From NCBI GenBank assembly GCA_028691845.1, contig JAQUYL010000010.1:1-64000 (forward strand): a DNA stretch of 64,000 bases, read 5' to 3'. A model generated the notes under the pieces. That model was not told the DNA's origin. It was given only the letters and a program-made list of their open reading frames with translations, and did no database searches. The translations under genes were made by a program, and so were the position numbers. Of this stretch, positions 21,824 through 46,212 are shown in pieces. The number at the start of each line of letters is the position of its first letter. Position 1 is the stretch's first letter. This stretch comes from Opitutaceae bacterium (GTDB lineage Bacteria; Verrucomicrobiota; Verrucomicrobiia; Opitutales; Opitutaceae).

Positions 21824-21891
21824 ATTTGTCATTTAATAGATGACAATCTGATCGATGAACATGGCTATTTGTCATCTATTAAATGACAAAT
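21824..21891. repeat. Bipartite inverted repeat with 23-base arms
   Basis: Arms at 21824-21846 and 21869-21891 are perfect reverse complements separated by 22 bases. Each arm is itself a dyad, TTGTCAT and ATGACAA spaced by 7 A/T-rich bases, so the whole is a palindrome of palindromes. It is AT-rich in GC-rich surroundings and lies between the IS630 relic and the tlyA-like gene. It could be a pair of operator sites, the end structure of a small mobile element, or a cruciform. There is no adjacent run of T to make it a simple terminator. Confidence 0.85.
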
Positions 21892-35039: not shown

Positions 35040-35765
35040 ATGGACAAGGTTATGAACCTGGACCTGAGTGTGGCCTACGGTGACGTCGACCGCGACGGGC
35101 TGCTGCTGCTCCCGGGCGTATTCAAGTTTCTGCAGGAAGCGGCCATCAAGCACGCAGACCAGTACGATACCGGCACGCATGCCATGCTCACGCGCGGCGA
35201 GTCGTGGGTGCTCAACCGCCTGGCCGCCACCATCCATCGCTATCCGCGTTACGAAGAGGTCGTGCGCGTGACGACGTGGTCCAGCGGCATCCGCGTTTTC
35301 AAGGGCTTTCGCGACTTCCGAGTGTACGCCCGCTCCGAGCTGATACTCGAGGCCTCGTCGCTCTGGATCTACGTCGACCTTAAGAACAAGTCGCTCACCC
35401 GCGTGCCCACGGAGATCGCCGCGGCTTTCCCCTTCCACGACGGGACCGTCTTCCGGCCCAATCTCGAAAAGCTCCGGCTGGTTCCGCCCGGCGCCGGGAC
35501 GACGGCGGCCGCGACCGTCGCCATCCGTTACTCTGACATCGACGGCAACGGCCACGTCAACAACACCGCTTATTTCGACCTCCTGCAGACGGCACTCGTG
35601 CGCAGCGGATTCCCCGCCCGACCGAAACGTATCGAGATCCAGTTTCTGAGGGAGATACCGGCCGACGTGACCGCCGTGGATGTCTGTCTCGAGCGGCAGG
35701 ATCGCGCCATCGTCTTTAGCATCGGCCTCCCCGAGGCACCCTTCGCGGTCGGACAGGCCGGCTGA
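35040..35765 (+). CDS. Acyl-ACP thioesterase family protein
   Basis: A 241-residue protein with two hot-dog folds. The first is YGDVDRDGLLLLPGVFKFLQ to ASSLWIYVDLKNKSLTRVP. The second contains VAIRYSDIDGNGHVNNTAYF, whose Asp/Asn/His residues match the active site of FatA-type acyl-ACP thioesterases. It would release fatty acids from acyl carrier protein. Start at the ATG 35040 (MDKVMNLDLSVAYG); the next methionine, four residues on, is also plausible. Confidence 0.87.
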   Translation: MDKVMNLDLSVAYGDVDRDGLLLLPGVFKFLQEAAIKHADQYDTGTHAMLTRGESWVLNRLAATIHRYPRYEEVVRVTTWSSGIRVFKGFRDFRVYARSELILEASSLWIYVDLKNKSLTRVPTEIAAAFPFHDGTVFRPNLEKLRLVPPGAGTTAAATVAIRYSDIDGNGHVNNTAYFDLLQTALVRSGFPARPKRIEIQFLREIPADVTAVDVCLERQDRAIVFSIGLPEAPFAVGQAG

Positions 35766-35810
35766 CCCGAAGAGACCGCAGGCAGGTTGCATGAGGCCGC
35801 CGCCAGGCGT

Positions 35811-37733
35811 TCATGCGTGCTGGAGATAGGTCTTCCCCTTGTACCGTGCAGCGAGAATCAGGAAGGCAACGGCCGCCGCCGCCATCAACCCGGCAAACGT
35901 CCAGAAGAACGTGGCAAGCGACAGTTTCTCCAGCGGCGCGAGAAACGCCACGAGCACGTTGCCGAATGTCACGCACAGCAGCCAGAAGCCCATGATGGTA
36001 GACTTCATCGCCCGCGGGGCCTGCGTGTAGGCGAACTCGAGGCCGGTCACCGACACGAGCACTTCCGCCGTGGTGAGGATGAAGAATGGAATGACCTGCC
36101 AGAGCACGTGAATCTGCCCTTGACCGACGGCTTCGATGCGGGCCTGGATCAGCGCCACCGCCACAAACGCCAGCGACGCGAGGAACATGCCGATGGTCAT
36201 CCGGTGCAGCGGCCTCAGCGGCCGGCCGCGACGCTCGAGCGGCTTGTAGATCAGCACGTTCAGCAGCGGGATGATTACCATCACCATGAGCGGATTGGTC
36301 GCGGCAATCTGCGCCGGCAGCATGTCGATGACCACCCTGCCCCCGATGATTAACTGGGCCCCGATCGCGCCGAGCCCCCACGCCCCGAGCAACCCCAGGT
36401 AGCCCCACGTCACGGCCCGCGGAATCGGATGATTGCCCACCCAAAGGAAAAGCCAGGCCGCACCGAAGAGCGCCGAGACGATTACCCCGGGCCACACCCA
36501 CCAGTTCCAGACGATCGCCGGCATCGTGAGCTGCAGATCCATCGCCTTGGCCTGCTCCACCCACGTCGACGAGTGCTGGTCGAACAGCGCCCAAAACACG
36601 CTAACCATGGAGAACACCACGATGATGCGGAGCACGGCCGGCGGCCCATCCGCCACTTCGTCGCCGTACCGCGTCCGGGCCGGCGTCCAGAAATCCTCGT
36701 CCGGCCGGCGCGTGCCGCGCTCGCGCCAGCAGTACAGCAGCGTCGCGAAGAATCCAGTGTCCTGCTGGAGCTTCTGGCGCACCCCGAAGATCGCCATCCC
36801 CAGCCCGAGACCGCCAAGGGCAATGAGTGCATACCACCAGTACTCGGCGGCGATGTGCTGCAAAGCCGCCACCACCTCCCCCGCCTGACCGCTCATCCCG
36901 GCCTGGACTATTTCCTCCGCCACGGCGGCCCCCACCCCCACCATCACCAGCAGGGGTGTCGCCATGAGCGAGGAGGCGACAAAATCGAGCAGGCCGAGTT
37001 TGCCGCCAGGTTGCGGCGGCACTCTGATGAATTTGTTTTTACCGAGCCAGAAGACAACGGTGGCGAGGAACATCAGTACGCCGGGCACACCGAACGCCAC
37101 GGCCGGACCGTAGATGCCGTACTTCTTGTACAGCCAGGGCGTCAGCACGGTGGCGAAAAACGACCCGAAGTTGATCATGAAGTAGAAAATCTGAAAGATT
37201 CGCGTCACGAGATGGGCGTTCTTCGCCGTAAACTGGTCGCCCACATTGGCCGACACGCAGGGTTTGATTCCCCCGGACCCCAGCGCGACGAGCGTCAGCC
37301 CCAGAAATACGATCGCCTGGGCGCCGCCAAGATTGCCCATGGCTCCGGCATAGCCGGCAAACGACATGGCGGCCTGGCCGGCGCAATAAATCAGCGATAC
37401 CCAGAAGATGACACGATACTTGCCCAGAAGGCGATCGGCGAGGATCGCCCCGATCATCGGGAACAGGTAAACGCCAGCATTGAAAAGATGCACGATCTGC
37501 GTGGCGCGCACCTTGGCCTCGGCCAACGCATCCGGCGCCACCGCCGATTCGGTCACGAAGCCGACGAACAACGACGTGAGGTAGATGTAGAGAATCTGCC
37601 TCATGCCGTAAAAGCTGAACCGCTCGGCCCCTTCGTTGCCGACGATGTAGGGAATACCGGGCGGGAAGCGATCGCCGCGGGGAGGGGTGACGGGAGAGCC
37701 GGAGGGTAACGAGGTCGCGGTCGATGAACTCAT
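35811..37733 (-). CDS. POT-family proton-dependent oligopeptide transporter
   Basis: A 640-residue inner-membrane transporter with about 14 helices. PTR2 signatures: ERFSFYGMRQILYIYL, FNAGVYLFPMIGAILADR, GSGGIKPCVSANVGDQF and FYFMINFGSFFATVLTPWL. The E-R-F-S-F-Y motif in helix 1 is the variant of ExxERFxYY that couples protons. It takes up di- and tripeptides. It starts at the ATG 37733 (MSSSTATSLPSG), seven codons inside the longest frame. The charged loop between helices 6 and 7 is extended. Confidence 0.93.
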   Translation of the reverse strand: MSSSTATSLPSGSPVTPPRGDRFPPGIPYIVGNEGAERFSFYGMRQILYIYLTSLFVGFVTESAVAPDALAEAKVRATQIVHLFNAGVYLFPMIGAILADRLLGKYRVIFWVSLIYCAGQAAMSFAGYAGAMGNLGGAQAIVFLGLTLVALGSGGIKPCVSANVGDQFTAKNAHLVTRIFQIFYFMINFGSFFATVLTPWLYKKYGIYGPAVAFGVPGVLMFLATVVFWLGKNKFIRVPPQPGGKLGLLDFVASSLMATPLLVMVGVGAAVAEEIVQAGMSGQAGEVVAALQHIAAEYWWYALIALGGLGLGMAIFGVRQKLQQDTGFFATLLYCWRERGTRRPDEDFWTPARTRYGDEVADGPPAVLRIIVVFSMVSVFWALFDQHSSTWVEQAKAMDLQLTMPAIVWNWWVWPGVIVSALFGAAWLFLWVGNHPIPRAVTWGYLGLLGAWGLGAIGAQLIIGGRVVIDMLPAQIAATNPLMVMVIIPLLNVLIYKPLERRGRPLRPLHRMTIGMFLASLAFVAVALIQARIEAVGQGQIHVLWQVIPFFILTTAEVLVSVTGLEFAYTQAPRAMKSTIMGFWLLCVTFGNVLVAFLAPLEKLSLATFFWTFAGLMAAAAVAFLILAARYKGKTYLQHA

Positions 37734-37966: not shown

Positions 37967-39412
37967 TTAACCGGCCAGCTTGCGTCGAAGGATTTCGTCG
38001 ACGAGCCTGGGGTTGGCCTTGCCCTTCGACTGCTTCATCATGAAACCCTTCATGGCGTTGATCGCCTTGTCGTTGCCTGCTTTGAAGTCGGCGACCGACT
38101 TTGGATTGGCCGCCATGGCGGCATCGGCCCATTCCTCCAATTCATTGGTGTCGGTCGATTGCTTGAGTCCCTTGCGCTCGACGAGCGCCTCCGGCATCTC
38201 GCCGGTCGCGAACATTTCCACAAACACCTCCTTGGCGATGTTGCTGGAAATGGCCCCGCCCTCGACGAGTTTCACCAGGCCGGCAATGTGCGCTGGGCGC
38301 ACGCGGGAATCGGCAAGCGATTGTCTGGAACTGGCAAGATCGCGCAGCAGGTCGTTCGTGATCCAGTTGCCTGCGGCCTGCGGCTTGTCGCAAAGCCGGG
38401 CGGCCGCCTCGAAATAGTCGCTGAGCTCGCGGTCGCGCACTAGCACCGCCGTGATCGTGTAAGGCAGGCGGTACTTCTCCATAAACCGGCGCTGCTTGTC
38501 GAAGGGCAGTTCGGGAAGGGGCGCGCGCAGCCGCGCCTTCCAGTCCTCGTCCACCTTGACCGGCATGAGATCGGGATCCGGGAAATAGCGGTAATCGTGC
38601 GCCATTTCCTTCGACCGCAAAGACTGGGAGGCGCCAGTCTGGCCGTCGTAGTCGCGCGTCTCCTGCACAATGGTGCCGCCGCCTTCGATCACGGCAATCT
38701 GGCGCTTGATCTCATGATCGATGCCATCGCGCACAAACGAGATGGAATTGAGGTTCTTCAACTCGACCTTGGTGCCGAGCTTGGTGCTGCCGGCCGGCCG
38801 GATCGAGACGTTGGCGTCGCAGCGGAGCTGGCCCTTCTCCATGTCGCAATCGGAAATGCCCCCGTAAATCATGACCGTCTTGAGCGCGGTGAGGTAGGCG
38901 AAAGCTTCGTCCGCTCCATGGAGGGCGGGCTCGGAAACAATTTCCATGAGAGGGGTGCCGGCGCGGTTGTAATCGATCAGGGAATCGTGAACGCCGTGGC
39001 TCAATTTTCCGACATCCTCCTCAAGATGAATGCGGGTCAGCGGAATCTTTTTGTGCTCACCCATGACGTTGCGCGACGGGCCGGGCAGCTCGATCTCGAC
39101 GAAACCGCCCAGACAGATCGGCTGGTCGTATTGGGAAATCTGGTAGTTTTTTGGCGAGTCGGGATAAAAATAGTTCTTCCGATCCCACTTGCAGACCGGG
39201 GCGATGGTGCAGCCCAGCATGAGACCAGCCTGGATGACCTTGTCGATGGCCTCCTTGTTCATGACGGGCAGCACGCCGGGCAGCGCCAGGACCACGGGGT
39301 CGGTCAGCGTGTTTTCCGGCTGGCCGTAGCCGGCGGCCACCCGCGCGAACATCTTCGAGCAGGTTTTGATCTGGACGTGGACTTCAAGGCCGATGACGGC
39401 TTCGTAGGGCAT
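37967..39412 (-). CDS. gatB: Aspartyl/glutamyl-tRNA amidotransferase subunit B
   Basis: The tRNA-binding subunit of GatCAB, which converts Glu-tRNA-Gln (or Asp-tRNA-Asn) to the amide form. At 481 residues it is normal length. It shows YEAVIGLEVHVQIKTCSKMF, KNYFYPDSPKNYQISQYDQP, IHLEEDVGKLSH, MEIVSEP and LRCDANVSIRPAG. The YqeY-like C-terminal domain ends VDEILRRKLAG. It is the last gene of the minus-strand block, separated from gatA by a four-helix-bundle gene. Confidence 0.97.
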   Translation of the reverse strand: MPYEAVIGLEVHVQIKTCSKMFARVAAGYGQPENTLTDPVVLALPGVLPVMNKEAIDKVIQAGLMLGCTIAPVCKWDRKNYFYPDSPKNYQISQYDQPICLGGFVEIELPGPSRNVMGEHKKIPLTRIHLEEDVGKLSHGVHDSLIDYNRAGTPLMEIVSEPALHGADEAFAYLTALKTVMIYGGISDCDMEKGQLRCDANVSIRPAGSTKLGTKVELKNLNSISFVRDGIDHEIKRQIAVIEGGGTIVQETRDYDGQTGASQSLRSKEMAHDYRYFPDPDLMPVKVDEDWKARLRAPLPELPFDKQRRFMEKYRLPYTITAVLVRDRELSDYFEAAARLCDKPQAAGNWITNDLLRDLASSRQSLADSRVRPAHIAGLVKLVEGGAISSNIAKEVFVEMFATGEMPEALVERKGLKQSTDTNELEEWADAAMAANPKSVADFKAGNDKAINAMKGFMMKQSKGKANPRLVDEILRRKLAG

Positions 39413-39419
39413 GGGAGAG

Positions 39420-39505
39420 GAAAGGAGCGAGTAGAGGGGGAAGTAGTGGGTAGAGAGTAGCTGGCAGCCGGGAAGAAGTAGTGAGGAGCGGGTAGCGCGT
39501 AGTGA
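39420..39505. repeat. Degenerate TAGTGAGTAG-type repeats flanking four-helix gene (left side)
   Basis: Low-complexity text made of variants of GTAGTGAGTAG, AGTAGCTGG and GGAGCGAG. Related text in opposite orientation lies on the other side of the gene at 39880-39920 (CTACTCATCACTCACTACC, AGCTACTGACTCCTCGCTTC), so the 366-base gene is bracketed by imperfect inverted repeats. It carries no coding content. Confidence 0.65.
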
Positions 39506-39510
39506 GTAGA

Positions 39511-39876
39511 TTAGAAACAGTTGCGCTCAAGGCCGTTGTTGTAGCCTTGGAGCAGGCGAGAGACCTCTTCAAGATTGGTCTGGAGTACAGTGGTGTCCGC
39601 GTAACCGAGATCGTGGGCGAGAATGAGGTGATAGAGACATTCGTCAGCCGAGGCTTGGGCGATATTGTAGAAGCGAAGCTTGTCTGCCGCGGTGCGCCGG
39701 CGGAAGCCCTCGACAAAATTGGCGGAAATGCTCGCGGCGGCTCGGCGCACTTGCGAAGTGAGTCCGTATTGTTCCGACTTCGGGAAGGATTCCGAGGCCC
39801 GGTAAACTTGCAAGGTGAACGCGTGTGCCTTTTGCCACACGAGGACGTCACGGAACGATTGTGATTTGTCCGTCAT
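39511..39876 (-). CDS. Four-helix-bundle protein, 23S rRNA intervening-sequence (IVP/S23) family, copy 1
   Basis: A 121-residue protein, MTDKSQSFRDVLVWQKAHAF then LTSQVRRAAASISANFVEGF, ADKLRFYNIAQASADECLYH and LEEVSRLLQGY, the full pattern of the four-helix-bundle family first found inside 23S rRNA intervening sequences and related to the Avd proteins of diversity-generating retroelements. It is free-standing here, on the same strand as gatB and gatA, and starts 42 bases after the gatA stop. Function unknown; homotetrameric nucleic-acid binding is known for relatives. Flanked by degenerate inverted repeats. Confidence 0.9.
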   Translation of the reverse strand: MTDKSQSFRDVLVWQKAHAFTLQVYRASESFPKSEQYGLTSQVRRAAASISANFVEGFRRRTAADKLRFYNIAQASADECLYHLILAHDLGYADTTVLQTNLEEVSRLLQGYNNGLERNCF

Positions 39877-39918
39877 GCTTGCTACTCATCACTCACTACC
39901 AGCTACTGACTCCTCGCT

Positions 39919-41385
39919 TCATAGCTTTGGATGCCTCGTGTGCCAATCGTGCGCCTGCTCGTAGGCCCGGGCGATGGCGAGCAAATCCGCCTCCAGGTAA
40001 GGCTGACCGATGAGCTGCAGGCCAATTGGCAGGCCGTTTCCAGTGAATCCGCACGGTATGCTGATGCCCGGCAGACCCGCGAGGTTGACCGTGATCGTGT
40101 AGATGTCGCTCAGATACATGGCGAGCGGATCGGCCGACTTCTCGCCTTTCCGGAAGGCCGGCGTAGGCGAGGTGGGGGTGAGAATTGCGTCCACCTCCTG
40201 GTACGCCTTCAGAAAGTCCTGGCGGATGAGAGTGCGCACCTTTTGCGCGCGAAGGTAATAGGCGTCGTAGTAGCCGCTGCTCAGCACGTAGGTGCCGAGG
40301 ATGATGCGCCGCTTCACCTCCGGTCCAAACCCCTCGGCCCGCGATTTGAAGTAGAGGTCGAGGATATCGGTCGCCGTTTTCGAGCGGTGCCCGTAGCGGA
40401 TGCCGTCGTATCGCGCCAGGTTCGAGGACGCCTCGGCCGTGGCGATGATGTAGTAGGCGGCCACGCCGTATTCAGTGTGCGGCAGCGAGACTTCTTTGAT
40501 CGCACAGCCTGCTTTCTGGTAGTGGTCGATGGCGCGCTGCACCGCCGCCCCCACCTCGGGGTCAAGGCCCGTCCCAAAGTATTCCCTGGGTATCCCGAGC
40601 TTCCATGGCCCGCGGCGTTTCTTCAGCTCGGCCCGGTAGTCGGGAATCCCGGTCCGGAAAGAAGTCGAGTCGCGCTCATCGTGACCGGCGATGGCGCCGA
40701 GCGTGATGGCCACATCCTCCACCGTGCGGCCGAACGGGCCGATCTGGTCGAGAGACGAGGCGAAGGCGATCAACCCGTAGCGCGAGACCAGGCCGTAAGT
40801 CGGCTTGAGGCCGGCCAGATTGCACAACGCCGCCGGTTGCCGGATCGAGCCACCGGTATCAGAGCCGAGCGACACGACCGCCTCGCCCGCGGCCACGGCG
40901 GCCGCGCTGCCGCCCGAGGAACCGCCCGGCACACGCGCGAGATCCCAGGGATTCGACGTGACGTGGAAAGCCGAGTTTTCCGTCGAGGACCCCATGGCAA
41001 ACTCGTCGAGATTGAGCCGGCCCCAGCAGACGGCCCCGGCCTCCCTGAGCTTGCGCGCCACCGTCGCATCGTAGGGCGAAACGAACTGGGCGAGCATCTT
41101 GCTCGAAGCGGTCAGCGGCTGGCCTGCCACCGAGATGACGTCCTTGAGGCCGACCGGGATGCCGTCGAGCGGTCCCCTCGCCTGTCCCGCGGCGCGCCGG
41201 GCATCCGAGGCGCTGGCCTGGGCCAGAGCATCGGACTCGTCGAAGGAATTGAAGGCCCGCACCCGCCCGTCGATCGCCTTCGTCCGCTCAATGATCGTCT
41301 GGGCTAGCTCCACAGCGGAGATTTTTTTCGTGGCGAGCATCTCGCCCAGTTCGGCGGCAGTTTGGAAATAGAGTTCGGAAGACAC
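39919..41385 (-). CDS. gatA: Aspartyl/glutamyl-tRNA amidotransferase subunit A
   Basis: The glutaminase/amidase subunit of GatCAB. Counting from the GTG at 41385 ([16 protein letters not shown] follows) it has 488 residues. The amidase triad Lys81 ([10 protein letters not shown]), Ser156 ([15 protein letters not shown]) and Ser180 ([12 protein letters not shown]) keeps the spacing of known GatA enzymes. The frame is open up to 41532, but those extra 49 codons are repeat DNA and not conserved. The next upstream gene is gatC, 320 bases away across a repeat-rich spacer. Confidence 0.96.
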
Positions 41386-41416
41386 TGGGAAAATATTAGG
41401 CAAAAGGAGGTCAAAT

Positions 41417-41580
41417 AACCACAGGGAACACGGAGGCCACCGAGATCGGTGGGCAAGGCGGTTGGTCCCTTGTTTGAGGATCGGAAACTGGAAATTGATG
41501 AGCATGCCGGCCCCGGAGCCGGTGGAGGGCACCAGCGACGCAGGGAATTCTCTCCGTGATCTCTGTGTCTCGGCGGTTCA
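41417..41580. repeat. Inverted pair of CACAGAG/CACGGAG-type degenerate repeats in the gatC-gatA spacer
   Basis: AACCACAGGGAACACGGAGG at 41417-41436 faces CTCCGTGATCTCTGTGTCTC at 41552-41571, which ends CGGCGGTT at 41578. Read on opposite strands both follow the pattern AACC(A/G)C..GA.ACA(C/G).GAG. The pair brackets about 110 bases of otherwise unremarkable sequence. It adjoins the four-helix relic. Confidence 0.6.
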
Positions 41581-41608
41581 TTTTCTCAATGTGTGGGGAG
41601 ATACATGT

Positions 41609-41668
41609 GCCCGCATGGGCCTTTTGCCATGCGATCATCTCGCGAAAAGACTGTGATTCGTCGGCCAT
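41609..41668 (-). pseudogene. Relic of four-helix-bundle (IVP/S23) gene, first 20 codons only
   Basis: From ATG 41668 the frame reads MADESQSFREMIAWQKAHAG, matching the first 19-20 residues of copy 1 (MTDKSQSFRDVLVWQKAHAF) and copy 2 (MESAAKSFRDLIVWQKAHAF). Similarity stops abruptly, and the frame runs into CACAGAG/CACGGAG repeat DNA. A third insertion of the same gene in this operon has been deleted except for its 5' end. Confidence 0.8.
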
Positions 41669-41705
41669 GCTCGCTCCCACTGCTCGATGCACGCTGCTAC
41701 TGCCC

Positions 41706-41996
41706 TCATTCCACCACTTTGGGCACGGCGATCATGTGGTCGCGCTGCGCCGGGGCGTTTTGCAGCGCCTCTTCGACCGGCAGCGCCGGCTCAGCCACAT
41801 CGTCGCGCCAGACATTGCAGACCGGAAACGCATGCGCGGTCGGTTCGACCTGCGTGACGTCGAGCTCGTTCAGTTTTTCGATATAATGGAGAATATCACC
41901 CAGCTGCTGGGAGAATTGGGACTTCTCCTCCGCCGTCAGGGCGAGCCGGGCGAGATTTGCCACGTAATCGATGTTGATTTCGGAAGACTTGGACAT
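41706..41996 (-). CDS. gatC: Aspartyl/glutamyl-tRNA amidotransferase subunit C
   Basis: A 96-residue protein that holds GatA and GatB together: MSKSSEINIDYVANLARLAL, then AEEKSQFSQQLGDILHYIEKL, TAHAFPVCNVWRDDV and the C-terminal NAPAQRDHMIAVPKVVE, all typical of GatC. Start ATG 41996; a longer frame adds 25 codons without family similarity. Upstream of it on the same strand is pheT. Confidence 0.95.
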   Translation of the reverse strand: MSKSSEINIDYVANLARLALTAEEKSQFSQQLGDILHYIEKLNELDVTQVEPTAHAFPVCNVWRDDVAEPALPVEEALQNAPAQRDHMIAVPKVVE

Positions 41997-42092
41997 GGGC
42001 GGAATGGCTGACCGGACGCTGGATCCGGCCGTAAGTTCCAGTAATTCGACACTCGGCGCCTCGCTTGGCAACCGACAAAAAATCGGGCGGGG

Positions 42093-42170
42093 TCAAACAG
42101 GGATGGGCAGCGGGGTCTTTTCCACCGCCACGTCATCGATGGGAAAGCGGCGGACAATCCGGCAGCACAT
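42093..42170 (-). CDS. Possible 25-codon small ORF after pheT
   Basis: ATG 42170 opens a frame reading MCCRIVRRFPIDDVAVEKTP, ending LPIPV at a TGA. It follows the pheT stop in the same frame, and six G precede the ATG. The composition looks protein-like, with alternating hydrophobic and charged residues, but no family is known to me and nothing else supports translation. Confidence 0.2.
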   Translation of the reverse strand: MCCRIVRRFPIDDVAVEKTPLPIPV

Positions 42171-42185
42171 CCCCCCGAGGCCCGG

Positions 42186-44642
42186 TTAGACCCGCACGCT
42201 GATGGAACCGTCAGCGGCGATGTCCTGCTTGATTTTCGTGAAGGCGGCGTTGACCTCCTCGTCGGTGAGCGTCCGGACGGCGGAGCGGAAGGCGAGTGAG
42301 AACGCGAGGCTCTTCTTCCCCTCTGGCAGACCCTGGCCCTTGTAGACATCGAACACTTTGATCTGCTCGACTGTGAAGGCCCCGGCTGCGGCCGCCTGAG
42401 CGACCTGGGCAAGCGTTCGGCGCACGTCGTCGGCATGGCGCGAGGCATCGACCACCAAGGCGATGTCGCGCAACGCCGCCGGGAACAGGCTGATCGGCTG
42501 GTAACGGCGACGAATCGAATCGGCCGGCAGTTTTTCGGGCAGAATGACGAAGATGCCGGCCCACACCTGCCCTTCGATGCCTGCCGCCCGCAGCATGGCC
42601 AGATTCACCAGGCCGAAACGGGCCGCCCAACCGTCCGTCATTTCCCCGGCGCTAGCCGAATGGTCTTCCTGCCAGTCAGGATAGGCGCCGCTGACCGGCG
42701 AAAGAGCGCTCTTGCCAAGCTCAACCCCGGCGTGGCCGGCGAGAATCTCGACGTGGCGTTTGGCGGTGTAGAAATCGGCAGCCGCTCGCGGCAGCCAGGC
42801 GCGGTCCTTTTCGTTGTGGCAATTGAGAAACGCCACCGCCGCGCACTCATGCGCGACGCCATCGCGTTCGACAAACACCCGCCCGGTCTCGAAGAGACGG
42901 CAGGCCTCCACGCCGCGCGACTGATTGAGCTTGAGCGATTCAAGCATGCCGAGCAGCAGGGTCGGCCGCAGGTGCGACTGGTCCTCCACGAACGGATTGG
43001 CGAGCGCCAGTTCCTGCGCCGCGGCCCGGGAAACCCAGACTTTCAGCTCATTGGCCGAGCGCAGCGTGTAGTTGACAACCTCGTGATAATTCTGGCCGAC
43101 GAGGTAGGCGGACACCTTGCGGTTGAATACAACCACCGGATCATCGTCCCCGTCGAGGAGCGCCGGCCCGATACAGGGCGCCGGCGGCACCCGGTCGGAA
43201 CCATACAGGCGCAGCACTTCCTCGACCAGATCGATGGGGCGGTCGAGATCGCTGCGATAACTGGGAATGTCCACCGTCCATTCGGGACCGGTTTCCTTCC
43301 TGCTCTCGCCCACGATGGCGAGGTTGAGCAACTTGAGGGCATTGCGCATCTCGTCGTCGCTGAGGGGGAATCCCAGCCGGCGGCGCACATAGTCCGACGT
43401 GAGCGTGATCTCGCGCTTCCAAGGCCGGTCGCCACCCACGTGATAAAGCGGTCCGACGACGTGTCCACCCGCCGTCTCGAGAATCAGATCGATAGTGCGG
43501 CGGGCCGCCTCAAAGGTGCTGTGCGGATCGACCCCCCGCTCAAAACGGTAGGAGGAATCGGAGGCCAGCCCAAGGCGCTTGGAGGTCCAGCGGACGGACT
43601 GCGGACGGAAATAGGCCGCTTCCAACACCACATCGGTGGTGGTGCTGTCGACCTCGGCCTTTTCCCCTCCCATGATGCCCGCGACGACCATGGGCTTGTC
43701 GGCGTCAGCGATCACCAGCATGCGGCTGCTGAGGGTGCGCTCCTTGCCATCGAGCGTGACCAGCTTCTCGCGGTCCGCGGCGCGCCGGACGACGATCCTG
43801 CGCCCGCCAATCTTCTTGGCGTCGAACACATGCACCGGCTGCCCCAGTTCCAGCATCGCATAGTTGCCGACATCAACGAGATTATTGATGGGGCGCAGGC
43901 CGACCGCCTTGAGACGCTCCTGCATCCATGCCGGGCTCGGACCGACCTTCACGCCCGTCACCAGGATGGCGATGTAGAGCGGGCAGTCCGCCGGTGATTC
44001 GACGCGGACTTCGGACAGAATGTCGGGACGGGCCGTCTCCGTTACCAGGTCATTGAATTTGATCTCGGGAAACCTGAGATCCTGCCGGAACCACGCCGCC
44101 AGTTCCCGCGCGATGCCGATGTGGCTCAGTGCGTCGGGCCGGTTGGGCGTAATCTCGAGATCAAACACCACATCCCCGGACGGCAGCACCTCGTTGATGG
44201 GCGTGCCGAGCGCTGGCGCGCCGTCAAGGAGGAGCAGGCCGGCATGCTCGGTGCCGAGGCCGAGCTCGTCGGGTGCGCACATCATGCCATCGGAAAGCTG
44301 GCCGCGGATTTTGGACTGCTTGATCTCGAAATCGCCCGGCAGCACCGCGCCCGGCAGCGCGACCGGAACCCGCCGGCCGGCATCGCAGTTGGGCGCGCCG
44401 CAAACGATCGTCTTGACGCCGCCGGCCGGGCCGACGTCCACCGTGCACACCGAAAGCTTGTCGGCGTTGGGATGCCGGACGCGCGTGAGAATCTCGCCGA
44501 CGACGACATGGTCGAGCTTCGGCGCGCCCGTGCGGACAATGCCTTCGACCTCAAAGCCCAGGAAGACGAGCGCATGGGCGATTTCGTCGACGGGTGCTTC
44601 GAGCGCGACATACTGTTTGAGCCAATTGAGGGAAATTTTCAT
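42186..44642 (-). CDS. pheT: Phenylalanyl-tRNA synthetase beta subunit
   Basis: An 818-residue subunit. It begins MKISLNWLKQYVALE, then a tRNA-binding (EMAP-like) domain (VVGEILTRVRHPNADKLSVC), the B3/B4 editing region (LFDLEITPNRPDALSHIGIA), the B5 domain and the C-terminal anticodon-binding FDX-ACB domain (ALRDIALVVDASRHADDV to SVRV). It forms an alpha2-beta2 enzyme with pheS. A four-helix-bundle gene is inserted between pheS and pheT, 37 bases before the pheT start. Confidence 0.97.
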   Translation of the reverse strand: MKISLNWLKQYVALEAPVDEIAHALVFLGFEVEGIVRTGAPKLDHVVVGEILTRVRHPNADKLSVCTVDVGPAGGVKTIVCGAPNCDAGRRVPVALPGAVLPGDFEIKQSKIRGQLSDGMMCAPDELGLGTEHAGLLLLDGAPALGTPINEVLPSGDVVFDLEITPNRPDALSHIGIARELAAWFRQDLRFPEIKFNDLVTETARPDILSEVRVESPADCPLYIAILVTGVKVGPSPAWMQERLKAVGLRPINNLVDVGNYAMLELGQPVHVFDAKKIGGRRIVVRRAADREKLVTLDGKERTLSSRMLVIADADKPMVVAGIMGGEKAEVDSTTTDVVLEAAYFRPQSVRWTSKRLGLASDSSYRFERGVDPHSTFEAARRTIDLILETAGGHVVGPLYHVGGDRPWKREITLTSDYVRRRLGFPLSDDEMRNALKLLNLAIVGESRKETGPEWTVDIPSYRSDLDRPIDLVEEVLRLYGSDRVPPAPCIGPALLDGDDDPVVVFNRKVSAYLVGQNYHEVVNYTLRSANELKVWVSRAAAQELALANPFVEDQSHLRPTLLLGMLESLKLNQSRGVEACRLFETGRVFVERDGVAHECAAVAFLNCHNEKDRAWLPRAAADFYTAKRHVEILAGHAGVELGKSALSPVSGAYPDWQEDHSASAGEMTDGWAARFGLVNLAMLRAAGIEGQVWAGIFVILPEKLPADSIRRRYQPISLFPAALRDIALVVDASRHADDVRRTLAQVAQAAAAGAFTVEQIKVFDVYKGQGLPEGKKSLAFSLAFRSAVRTLTDEEVNAAFTKIKQDIAADGSISVRV

Positions 44643-44662
44643 GAAAGGAGAGAGGAGTGCGA

Positions 44663-45057
44663 AGCGAGGAGCGAGAAGGTCATTTCTCGATGGCGTTCAT
44701 GTAAGCTTGCAGGAGACGTGACACCTCCTCGAGGTTGTGTTGCAGCGGAACGGTGTCGGTGAACTTCAGGTCATGCACGAGCACGAGGTAATAAAGGCAT
44801 TCGTCCGCGGAACCCTGCGCGATGTTAAAGTAGCGCAGTTTGTCGGCGGGACCGCATTTGCGGAAGCCTTCGACGATGTTGGCCGCAACGCTGACGGCGG
44901 CCCGGCGGAACTGAGAAGTGATACCATAACGCTCGGTCGCAGGAAATGCCTCCGAAACGCGGTAGACCTCCAGCACGAAAGCGTGCGCCTTCTGCCAGAC
45001 GATTAGATCGCGGAAGGATTTTGCGGCTGATTCCATGCTCGATTCTCGCTCCTCGCT
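44663..45057. repeat. Perfect 15-base inverted repeats flanking four-helix gene copy 2
   Basis: AGCGAGGAGCGAGAA at 44663-44677 and TTCTCGCTCCTCGCT at 45043-45057 are exact reverse complements lying 2 bases outside the stop and 6 bases outside the start of the four-helix-bundle gene. They look like terminal repeats of a 395-base element that consists of little else than this gene. Confidence 0.8.
44680..45036 (-). CDS. Four-helix-bundle protein, 23S rRNA intervening-sequence (IVP/S23) family, copy 2
   Basis: A 118-residue protein, MESAAKSFRDLIVWQKAHAF followed by TSQFRRAAVSVAANIVEGF, DKLRYFNIAQGSADECLYYL and LEEVSRLLQAYMNAIEK. It is the same family as copy 1 and about 60 % identical by eye. 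It starts 44 bases after the pheS stop, nearly the same spacing as copy 1 has to gatA, and is on the operon strand. The ATG at 45036 sits just inside the 15-base terminal repeat; a frame extension upstream crosses the repeat and is unlikely to be used. Confidence 0.9.
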   Translation of the reverse strand: MESAAKSFRDLIVWQKAHAFVLEVYRVSEAFPATERYGITSQFRRAAVSVAANIVEGFRKCGPADKLRYFNIAQGSADECLYYLVLVHDLKFTDTVPLQHNLEEVSRLLQAYMNAIEK

Positions 45058-45080
45058 GCTCGGCTTCTTTGGCCGTTCGC

Positions 45081-46124
45081 TCACGCGAACTGCCGCAGGA
45101 ACCGGAGGTCATTCTGGTAGAAATAGCGGATGTCATCGATGCCGTAGAGGAGCATCGCGAGGCGTTCGAGTCCCATGCCGAAAGCGTAGCCGGTCCAGAC
45201 CTCGGGGTCGTAGCCGACGGCCTCGAACACGGATGGATCCACCATGCCGCAGCCGCCGATCTCGATCCATTCCTTGTTCACCTTTGGCAGATGCCTGGCG
45301 CTGAGGTCCACCTCGAAGCTGGGCTCGGTGTAGCCGAAGTAGTGCGGGCGGAAGCGCGTCTTGGTGTCGGGTCCCAGCAGTGCCGCAAAGATGTAATCGA
45401 GCAGCGCCTTGAGATCGCGCACCGTCACGTCGCGATCGACGTACAGGCATTCGAGCTGGTGAAAGTTGGCGCTGTGCGTGGCGTCGGTAGTATCGCGACG
45501 GAACACGCGTCCGGGAGACACGATGCGGATCGGCGGCGGGCGCTTGAGCATGGTGCGGATCTGCACCGTCGACGTGTGGCTGCGCAACAGGTAGCGCTCT
45601 TCAGGCACCCTTTTGGAAACATTGCCAAAGCGGGCGTTTTCCGGGAAAAAGAACGTGTCCTGCACATCGCGAGCCGGATGCTCCGGCGGCGTGTTGAGCG
45701 CATCGAAGTTGTAAAACTCCGTGTCAACCTCCGGCCCGTCGGCGACGCTGAAGCCGGCCCTGCGCAGGATGCGGCACATCTCCTCCCGCACAAGCGTCAG
45801 CGGGTGGTAGGTGCCGGGGCCGGCGTCGGGCGAGGGCAGAGTGGGATCGACCGCCGGTCCGAGCTGGGCCGCGATCTCGCGATCCGCAATTGTCCGGAGT
45901 GCCGCATCGAGCAGAGACTGGAGCCGGACCTTGGCCTCGTTGATGAGCTTGCCGAGAGCGGGACGCTGGTCCTTGGGCACGGAGCCCATTTGTTTCAGCA
46001 GCGCGGTAAACTCGCCGTTGGGGCCGACGTAACGCGCCTTGGCGGTTTCGAATTCGGCCCGGGTCTGCAGCGCAGAGAATTCCGTCTGCGCCTTGGCGAG
46101 AATGGTGGCAATGGTTGCTTGCAT
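45081..46124 (-). CDS. pheS: Phenylalanyl-tRNA synthetase alpha subunit
   Basis: Catalytic subunit, 347 residues. It has an N-terminal coiled coil (residues 1-90), then class II motifs: HPLTLVREEMCRILRRAGFS, GPEVDTEFYNFDALNTPPEHPARDVQDTF region, LLRSHTSTVQIRTM, and motif 3 AFGMGLERLAMLLYGIDDIR. It is the first synthetase gene of the block; rplT lies 182 bases upstream beyond a terminator. Confidence 0.97.
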   Translation of the reverse strand: MQATIATILAKAQTEFSALQTRAEFETAKARYVGPNGEFTALLKQMGSVPKDQRPALGKLINEAKVRLQSLLDAALRTIADREIAAQLGPAVDPTLPSPDAGPGTYHPLTLVREEMCRILRRAGFSVADGPEVDTEFYNFDALNTPPEHPARDVQDTFFFPENARFGNVSKRVPEERYLLRSHTSTVQIRTMLKRPPPIRIVSPGRVFRRDTTDATHSANFHQLECLYVDRDVTVRDLKALLDYIFAALLGPDTKTRFRPHYFGYTEPSFEVDLSARHLPKVNKEWIEIGGCGMVDPSVFEAVGYDPEVWTGYAFGMGLERLAMLLYGIDDIRYFYQNDLRFLRQFA

Positions 46125-46212
46125 ATTATTCGTGCTCGTTCTCGTGCCCTTGCCCCTGCCCGGCCCGATGACGGAACGAGCAGGGAAACGGGGAGGGAAC
46201 GTTATAAAACAA

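Follow-up and report, generated by a model that had tools for sequence, protein, structure and literature searches.

The window analysed here, 64,000 nucleotides of an Opitutaceae bacterium contig (JAQUYL010000010.1 of assembly GCA_028691845.1), contains two genes of the PF05635/TIGR02436 family, labelled "23S rRNA intervening sequence protein" (IVP). One of them (copy 2) lies in sense orientation between a pheS-like and a pheT-like gene, and the other (copy 1) between neighbours that we take, from their sequences, to be gatA-like and gatB-like genes. The name pheT-like comes from sequence alone. The features of the region are as follows.

39413 to 39510, minus strand: right-arm region of copy 1, a pyrimidine-rich heptamer array reaching the next start codon
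39511 to 39876, minus strand: IVP open reading frame of copy 1, between the gatA-like and gatB-like genes
39881 to 39920, minus strand: left arm of copy 1
41416 to 41578, minus strand: inverted pair of CACAGAG/CACGGAG type without an open reading frame, read by eye, adjoining the next feature
41610 to 41704, minus strand: third IVP copy reduced to a remnant, its left arm and about 20 initial codons, at a gatC-like/gatA-like junction, read by eye
42186 to 44642, minus strand: pheT-like gene, downstream of copy 2
44647 to 44677, minus strand: 3' (right) arm of copy 2, made of about 4.4 reverse-complement heptamer units, with its exact core at 44663 to 44677
44680 to 45036, minus strand: IVP open reading frame of copy 2, ATG to TGA, 118 amino acids, PF05635/TIGR02436 four helix bundle protein
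45037 to 45064, minus strand: 5' (left, sense) arm of copy 2, four heptamer-like units abutting the ATG, with its exact core at 45043 to 45057
45081 to 46124, minus strand: pheS-like gene, upstream of copy 2, named from sequence

The sequence AGCGAGGAGCGAGAA occupies positions 44663–44677 and its exact reverse complement 45043–45057, delimiting an element of 395 bases, so the exact 15-base terminal inverted repeats described in an earlier note on this DNA are real. They flank copy 2 as tightly as was described there, the minus-strand left arm lying 6 bases before the ATG (45034–45036) and the right arm beginning 2 bases past the TGA (44680–44682). Exact 15-nt inverted repeats with a spacer of 20–400 bases occur twice in the window, where 40 dinucleotide shuffles gave 0.05 on average, and the repeat around copy 2 is beyond chance. 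Each exact 15-mer forms the core of a longer 7-nt array, at about 45037–45064 and 44647–44677. A closing stem is present in the RNA of the element folded in silico, and the stability of the whole-element fold is not unusual (z −1.45). An Rfam scan of 39000–46200 matched no family. The pheS-like gene has a relative in 60 of the 61 genomes of the host's family.

The arms of copy 1 are longer and less exact, inverted, and different in text, and copy 1 starts with GAAGCGAGGAG, as the earlier note had read them; the unit of these arms is AGTAGTG. The remnant of the third copy gave no match in the PF05635 searches. The inverted pair adjoining it is of the type that flanks PDDEXK_3 genes elsewhere. 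The second exact 15-nt match of the window lies at about 21.8 kb (21826–21889) within an AT-rich inverted repeat of 21 nt around a 22-base loop, which could be a terminator or a regulatory hairpin. A GC-rich 34-nt inverted pair with a spacer of 334 bases (score 33) was also seen at 35493–35894.

In profile searches, the product of copy 2 matches PF05635 with an E-value of 2.4e-31 (108.5 bits against a cut-off of 33.8) and TIGR02436 with a score of 105.6 (cut-off 24); four-helix-bundle families were its sole matches, and no transposase was found in this open reading frame. Its AlphaFold2 model (pLDDT 96) matches 2gsc (TM 0.92) and 2rld, for each of which five chains are listed. A further match, with weak E-values, is to Avd of diversity-generating retroelements (4dwl and 8ub7; TM about 0.8, E 0.08–0.5), and the scores of copy 2 lie below the cut-offs of the Avd models (17.9 against 80 for NF033474 and 17.2 against 40 for bAvd). 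A Xanthomonas IVP homologue has been called a homopentamer (PMC4990558), and PF05635 resembles Avd according to a study of these retroelements (PMC10053308); our search for literature on Avd rings and RNA found none under the terms used. IVP is under purifying selection, with a median dN/dS of 0.14 and values below 1 in 40 of 40 pairs (those with dS < 2 among 98).

The element is far more widespread than the window alone could reveal. The genome of the host holds seven PF05635 copies, and at least one copy was found in 51 of 61 genomes of its family at E ≤ 1e-5 and in 171 of 220 at E ≤ 1e-10. We assembled 96 family copies (7 from the host's genome, 29 from search-returned loci and 60 fetched from a list ranked by E-value); the sample omits three listed copies (two at contig ends, one partial) and the lower-ranked entries, so that weaker copies are under-sampled. 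In each copy, the 200 bases preceding the domain were aligned with the reverse-complemented 200 bases that follow it. Scores had a median of 35 with the copy's own partner and 17 with swapped partners, and in 76 copies the own partner was among the five best of 96. Own-flank scores exceeded the 99th percentile of swapped pairs in 41 of the 96; this bar is strict, since units are shared between related copies. A score of at least 26 was reached by 78 of the 96 real copies and by 13 of 292 control windows of the same geometry; the flanks of these 78 copies are inverted repeat arrays. The 18 copies scoring below 26 were left out of the period analysis. In the arms of the other 78, autocorrelation was 0.64 at lag 7 and 0.59–0.60 at lag 14 (controls, 0.24 and 0.27), with a best lag of 7 in 66, 8 in 10 and 6 in 2. 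Arrays were clear on both sides in 44 of the 96 copies, and the arms of these contained 4.6 units at the median.

The same organization is found across bacterial phyla. Of 80 loci taken from named genomes, 77 had enough flank to be used. Their median own-flank score was 40 against 17 for swapped flanks, and 64 exceeded the 95th percentile of swapped pairs. Sixty-five scored at least 26, with period 7 in 53, 8 in 6 and 9 in 6, and seven scored below 22. When 172 copies were pooled, 41 were set aside for lack of a clear period, and the remaining 131 had period 7 (116 copies), 8 (10), 9 (4) or 6 (1). Clustering of the period on the IVP tree was only modest (for period 7, 7 of 500 shuffles were as low), and period as a trait of IVP clades was rejected. 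A four-oligo check found no IVP copy inside rRNA among the 80 named loci (one oligo matched, in L258, 0.6 kb upstream), and phage records gave no match.

The heptamer itself varies from copy to copy, and 114 period-7 units fit the degenerate core N-R-G-N-N-N-Y. Since the rotation of each unit was chosen to fit, the evidence for this core lies not in raw percentages but in the excess over the shuffled control (alignment score −811 against −883, sd 3, with within-unit positions shuffled). Left and right arms have the same unit profile in the 82 copies with arrays on both sides, and units from different sites resemble each other only where the IVPs do (Mantel r 0.30, p 0.0005). The anatomy of the element, its generality, its 7-nt period and its degenerate common unit are direct results of these comparisons, and the earlier description of ends that evolve as short-unit repeats while staying inverted holds both in the host's family and across bacteria.

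The element occupies junctions of co-directional genes, with IVP in sense in 86 of 90 callable family copies (of 96) and antisense to both neighbours in one. The codon model behind these calls was trained on pheS/pheT; it called IVP itself in 49 of 96 loci, one with the wrong strand. At pheS–pheT in the host's family, 50 loci were fetched and 49 were readable (L133 had no readable pheS end). Clean gaps of 0–37 nt, mostly 9–10, were seen at 16, IVP elements at 6, PDDEXK_3 elements at 4 and other inserts at 23, in 13 of which the inverted arms outscored every one of 200 shuffles. Among 20 pheS–pheT loci of one genus (excluding L303, a partial pheS match), 6 are clean junctions of 8–10 nt, 12 contain other sequence and one contains an IVP element (G036); in the remaining one (L284, genome G112), heptamer arms stand without an IVP open reading frame, as a MITE-like deletion derivative. 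A different palindromic insert, of GTAGGGGCG type, is present at the same junction in L291 and L294 (genomes G224 and G215). Empty junctions are mostly 8–10 nt and unconserved, and a target duplication is not readable because the element fills the junction.

Cyanobacterial plasmids carry IVP relatives up to 62% identical. In a Picosynechococcus plasmid (L328), the IVP element lies in a type III-B CRISPR operon, flanked by cas10 and a cmr3-family gene, and another plasmid IVP lies two genes before a VirB10-family gene. Two of the six fetched plasmid copies are antisense to both neighbours and three of the six have CAGAAGT/CAGGAGT-like left heptamers and short right arms, so that sense orientation and full arms are no universal rule.

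Other pheS–pheT junctions, in other genera (L098, L118, L137 and L139 among them), hold PDDEXK_3 (PF13366, GxxExxY-type) genes and ORF-less palindromes with arms of 8–10 nt period. These are a sister class of the element, alike in layout, in junctions and in the existence of ORF-less versions, and different in period and in having units that are alike between copies. Among 30 PDDEXK_3 loci in the host's family, 3 clipped ones were left out and 4 more scored below 26. The 23 scored had periods of 9 (15 loci), 8 (4) and 10 (4), and none had period 7 (Fisher 2.6e-14 against IVP arms). Because the period is 7 for IVP and 8–10 for PDDEXK_3 in the same genomes, spacing follows the enclosed gene and not the host polymerase. 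This favours a reader of the arms, which would most simply be the IVP ring.

Comparison of copies at the same site revealed how the two ends change. Sixteen groups of copies share orthologous sites. In 72 of 73 diverged same-site pairs, the duplex predicted for a copy's own ends is stronger than that of crossed ends, and the preference for own over crossed ends holds in 56 of 73 by copy and in 14 of 16 by group. Left and right flanks therefore co-vary at a site, in agreement with the earlier note. Same-site copies are mostly clades with stepwise unit shifts (for example AAAGTTG, AGAGTTG and AGAGCTG at one site), on a copy tree with few columns and many open forks. In one close pair (L299/L300), one base is changed alike in two adjacent units of one arm, as read by eye. 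Both ends change in concert and in place, and empty and arms-only sites exist.

When same-site copies are compared, IVP genes resemble each other less than their flanks do (155 of 162 pairs). The element is therefore passed on in place, and homing by horizontal transfer is rejected on the same comparison. Within genomes, paralogues are at most 0.70 identical among the fetched copies, and none of the 25 genomes from which two or more copies were fetched showed recent identical copies. In one clade of 19, related copies occupy four different junctions. The copies are mostly old and vertically inherited.

We lean towards the interpretation that copy 2 is an intervening element of IVS type in a protein-coding operon, that is, an IVP gene between inverted heptamer arrays, with RNA processing and unit reading as its presumed activities. 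Such an element would comprise one IVP gene and two inverted arrays of about 4–5 heptamers, inserted in sense orientation at an 8–10 nt junction of neighbouring co-directional genes. In the mRNA, the arms would close the element into a stem-loop cleavable by RNase III, by analogy with the Coxiella 23S IVS. The IVP inside the element is homologous to a pentameric ring protein and Avd-like in fold; it may read the heptamer units of its own element, and this reading may be what keeps both ends built from one unit. Several results weigh against this interpretation: the four-oligo check placed no copy of the 80 named loci in rRNA, the fold of the whole element is not unusually stable, neither a G.U signature nor mirrored unit order was seen, some copies have low flank scores, the plasmid copies include antisense ones and short right arms, and the period clusters only modestly on the IVP tree. 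A bolder version, in our view less likely than not, is that the IVP ring reads the array in register, at about one R-G dinucleotide per 7 nt, with each protomer of the pentamer taking about one heptamer (the arms have 4–5 units) and each IVP and its unit drifting together. Under such ring reading, this joint drift would alter the letters of both ends in concert, and 23S rRNA IVSs would count as one special address among pan-bacterial, self-reading operon inserts. TRAP, which reads spaced triplets, is a comparison for the proposed ring reading.

The earlier note proposed that pairing of the ends, not their sequence, is maintained. In its full form, an mRNA stem or cruciform DNA would shield or excise the insert, any pairing sequence would serve and IVP would be incidental. 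The concerted change of the inverted ends speaks for that proposal in part: own arms pair better than those of orthologues (72 of the 73 diverged pairs), the closing stem forms in silico, and RNase III cuts the Coxiella IVS in its terminal stem (PMC4990558). In that wording the proposal is not supported, as the unit is constrained in period and core and follows IVP relatedness. Neither the 7-nt period nor the N-R-G-N-N-N-Y core is needed for pairing, and PDDEXK_3 elements, with their other periods, pair just as well. The test of selection on RNA pairing through tolerance of G.U went against it, arm mismatches of G.U type being fewer than those of A.C type (64 against 118, p 8e-5; with one copy per site, 26 against 34, p 0.37). 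Variant units were also not found in mirrored order in 67 copies (mean mid-p 0.416, 64% below 0.5, Fisher p 0.24), at low power. We regard selection on pairing itself as unlikely. That missing mirror order, with the same low power, also argues against a functionless by-product of DNA copying, which predicts it: slippage would build the arrays of heptamers, and the inverted arms would stay alike through template switching between them. In most of the genomes surveyed, heptanucleotide repeats are reported to be the commonest category of repeat, with polymerase slippage as the proposed cause (PMC4679880), and repeat number varies between Coxiella strains (PMC4990558); these reports and the paired base change in L299/L300 are consistent with copying. 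A core common across phyla and a period that depends on the enclosed gene within one family of genomes (7 for IVP, 8–10 for PDDEXK_3) are not, and copying alone seems to us an improbable account.

We consider it very improbable that the element is an ordinary transposon or MITE whose terminal inverted repeats a transposase recognises in trans. Occupation of four junctions within one 19-copy clade, the arms-only derivative in G112 and the patchy occupancy of pheS–pheT would suit such mobility, but the ends vary from copy to copy, the highest paralogue identity within a genome is 0.70 among fetched copies, the open reading frame matches no transposase family, and the filled junction leaves no readable target duplication. 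Under the intervening-element interpretation, "four helix bundle protein", a common annotation without explanation, becomes linked to a defined element. The element may also be a source of the heptanucleotide repeat abundance reported for bacterial genomes. Furthermore, it provides a clean example of concerted evolution between two distant inverted arms, for which experiments can distinguish several causes. In the open-licence PMC literature, we found no description of inverted arms of heptamers flanking the IVP genes of protein operons.

REP/RAYT and MITE elements have short inverted ends in intergenic sites, and the element shares both properties with them; it differs in having neither a transposase family nor a common end sequence. 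Copy 2 differs from DNA transposons and insertion sequences in that only four-helix-bundle families, and no transposase, matched it and its ends are not conserved between copies. With PF05635/TIGR02436 (2gsc, 2rld), it shares scores above the cut-offs and the fold (TM 0.92), whereas the family annotation is silent on repeat arms. The fold is also like that of Avd (TM about 0.8), but the scores lie under the Avd cut-offs and the window copy sits between pheS- and pheT-like genes. The closest counterpart is the IVS of Coxiella 23S rRNA. It is 428 nt long and encodes S23p; its terminal inverted repeats pair in a 28-bp stem, and three tandem GACAGAT heptamers precede the open reading frame. RNase III excises it at the start of the first repeat, and strains differ in repeat number (PMC4990558). 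IVP open reading frames in rRNA insertions are also mentioned in a CPR study (PMC11270868). Like the Coxiella IVS, copy 2 has an IVP (S23p) open reading frame in transcript sense, inverted ends capable of forming a stem, a length in the range of about 400–430 nt and tandem heptamers before the open reading frame, as in the period-7 arms described here. By comparison, it lies between pheS- and pheT-like genes with no Rfam match nearby rather than within an rRNA gene, and is therefore not filed as a 23S IVS. The Coxiella IVS sits in helix 45 of the rRNA, has been shown to be excised by RNase III and, in the available text of its report, is described with heptamers on the 5' side only, whereas both arms carry them here. 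The comparison would place the rRNA IVS within a wider class.
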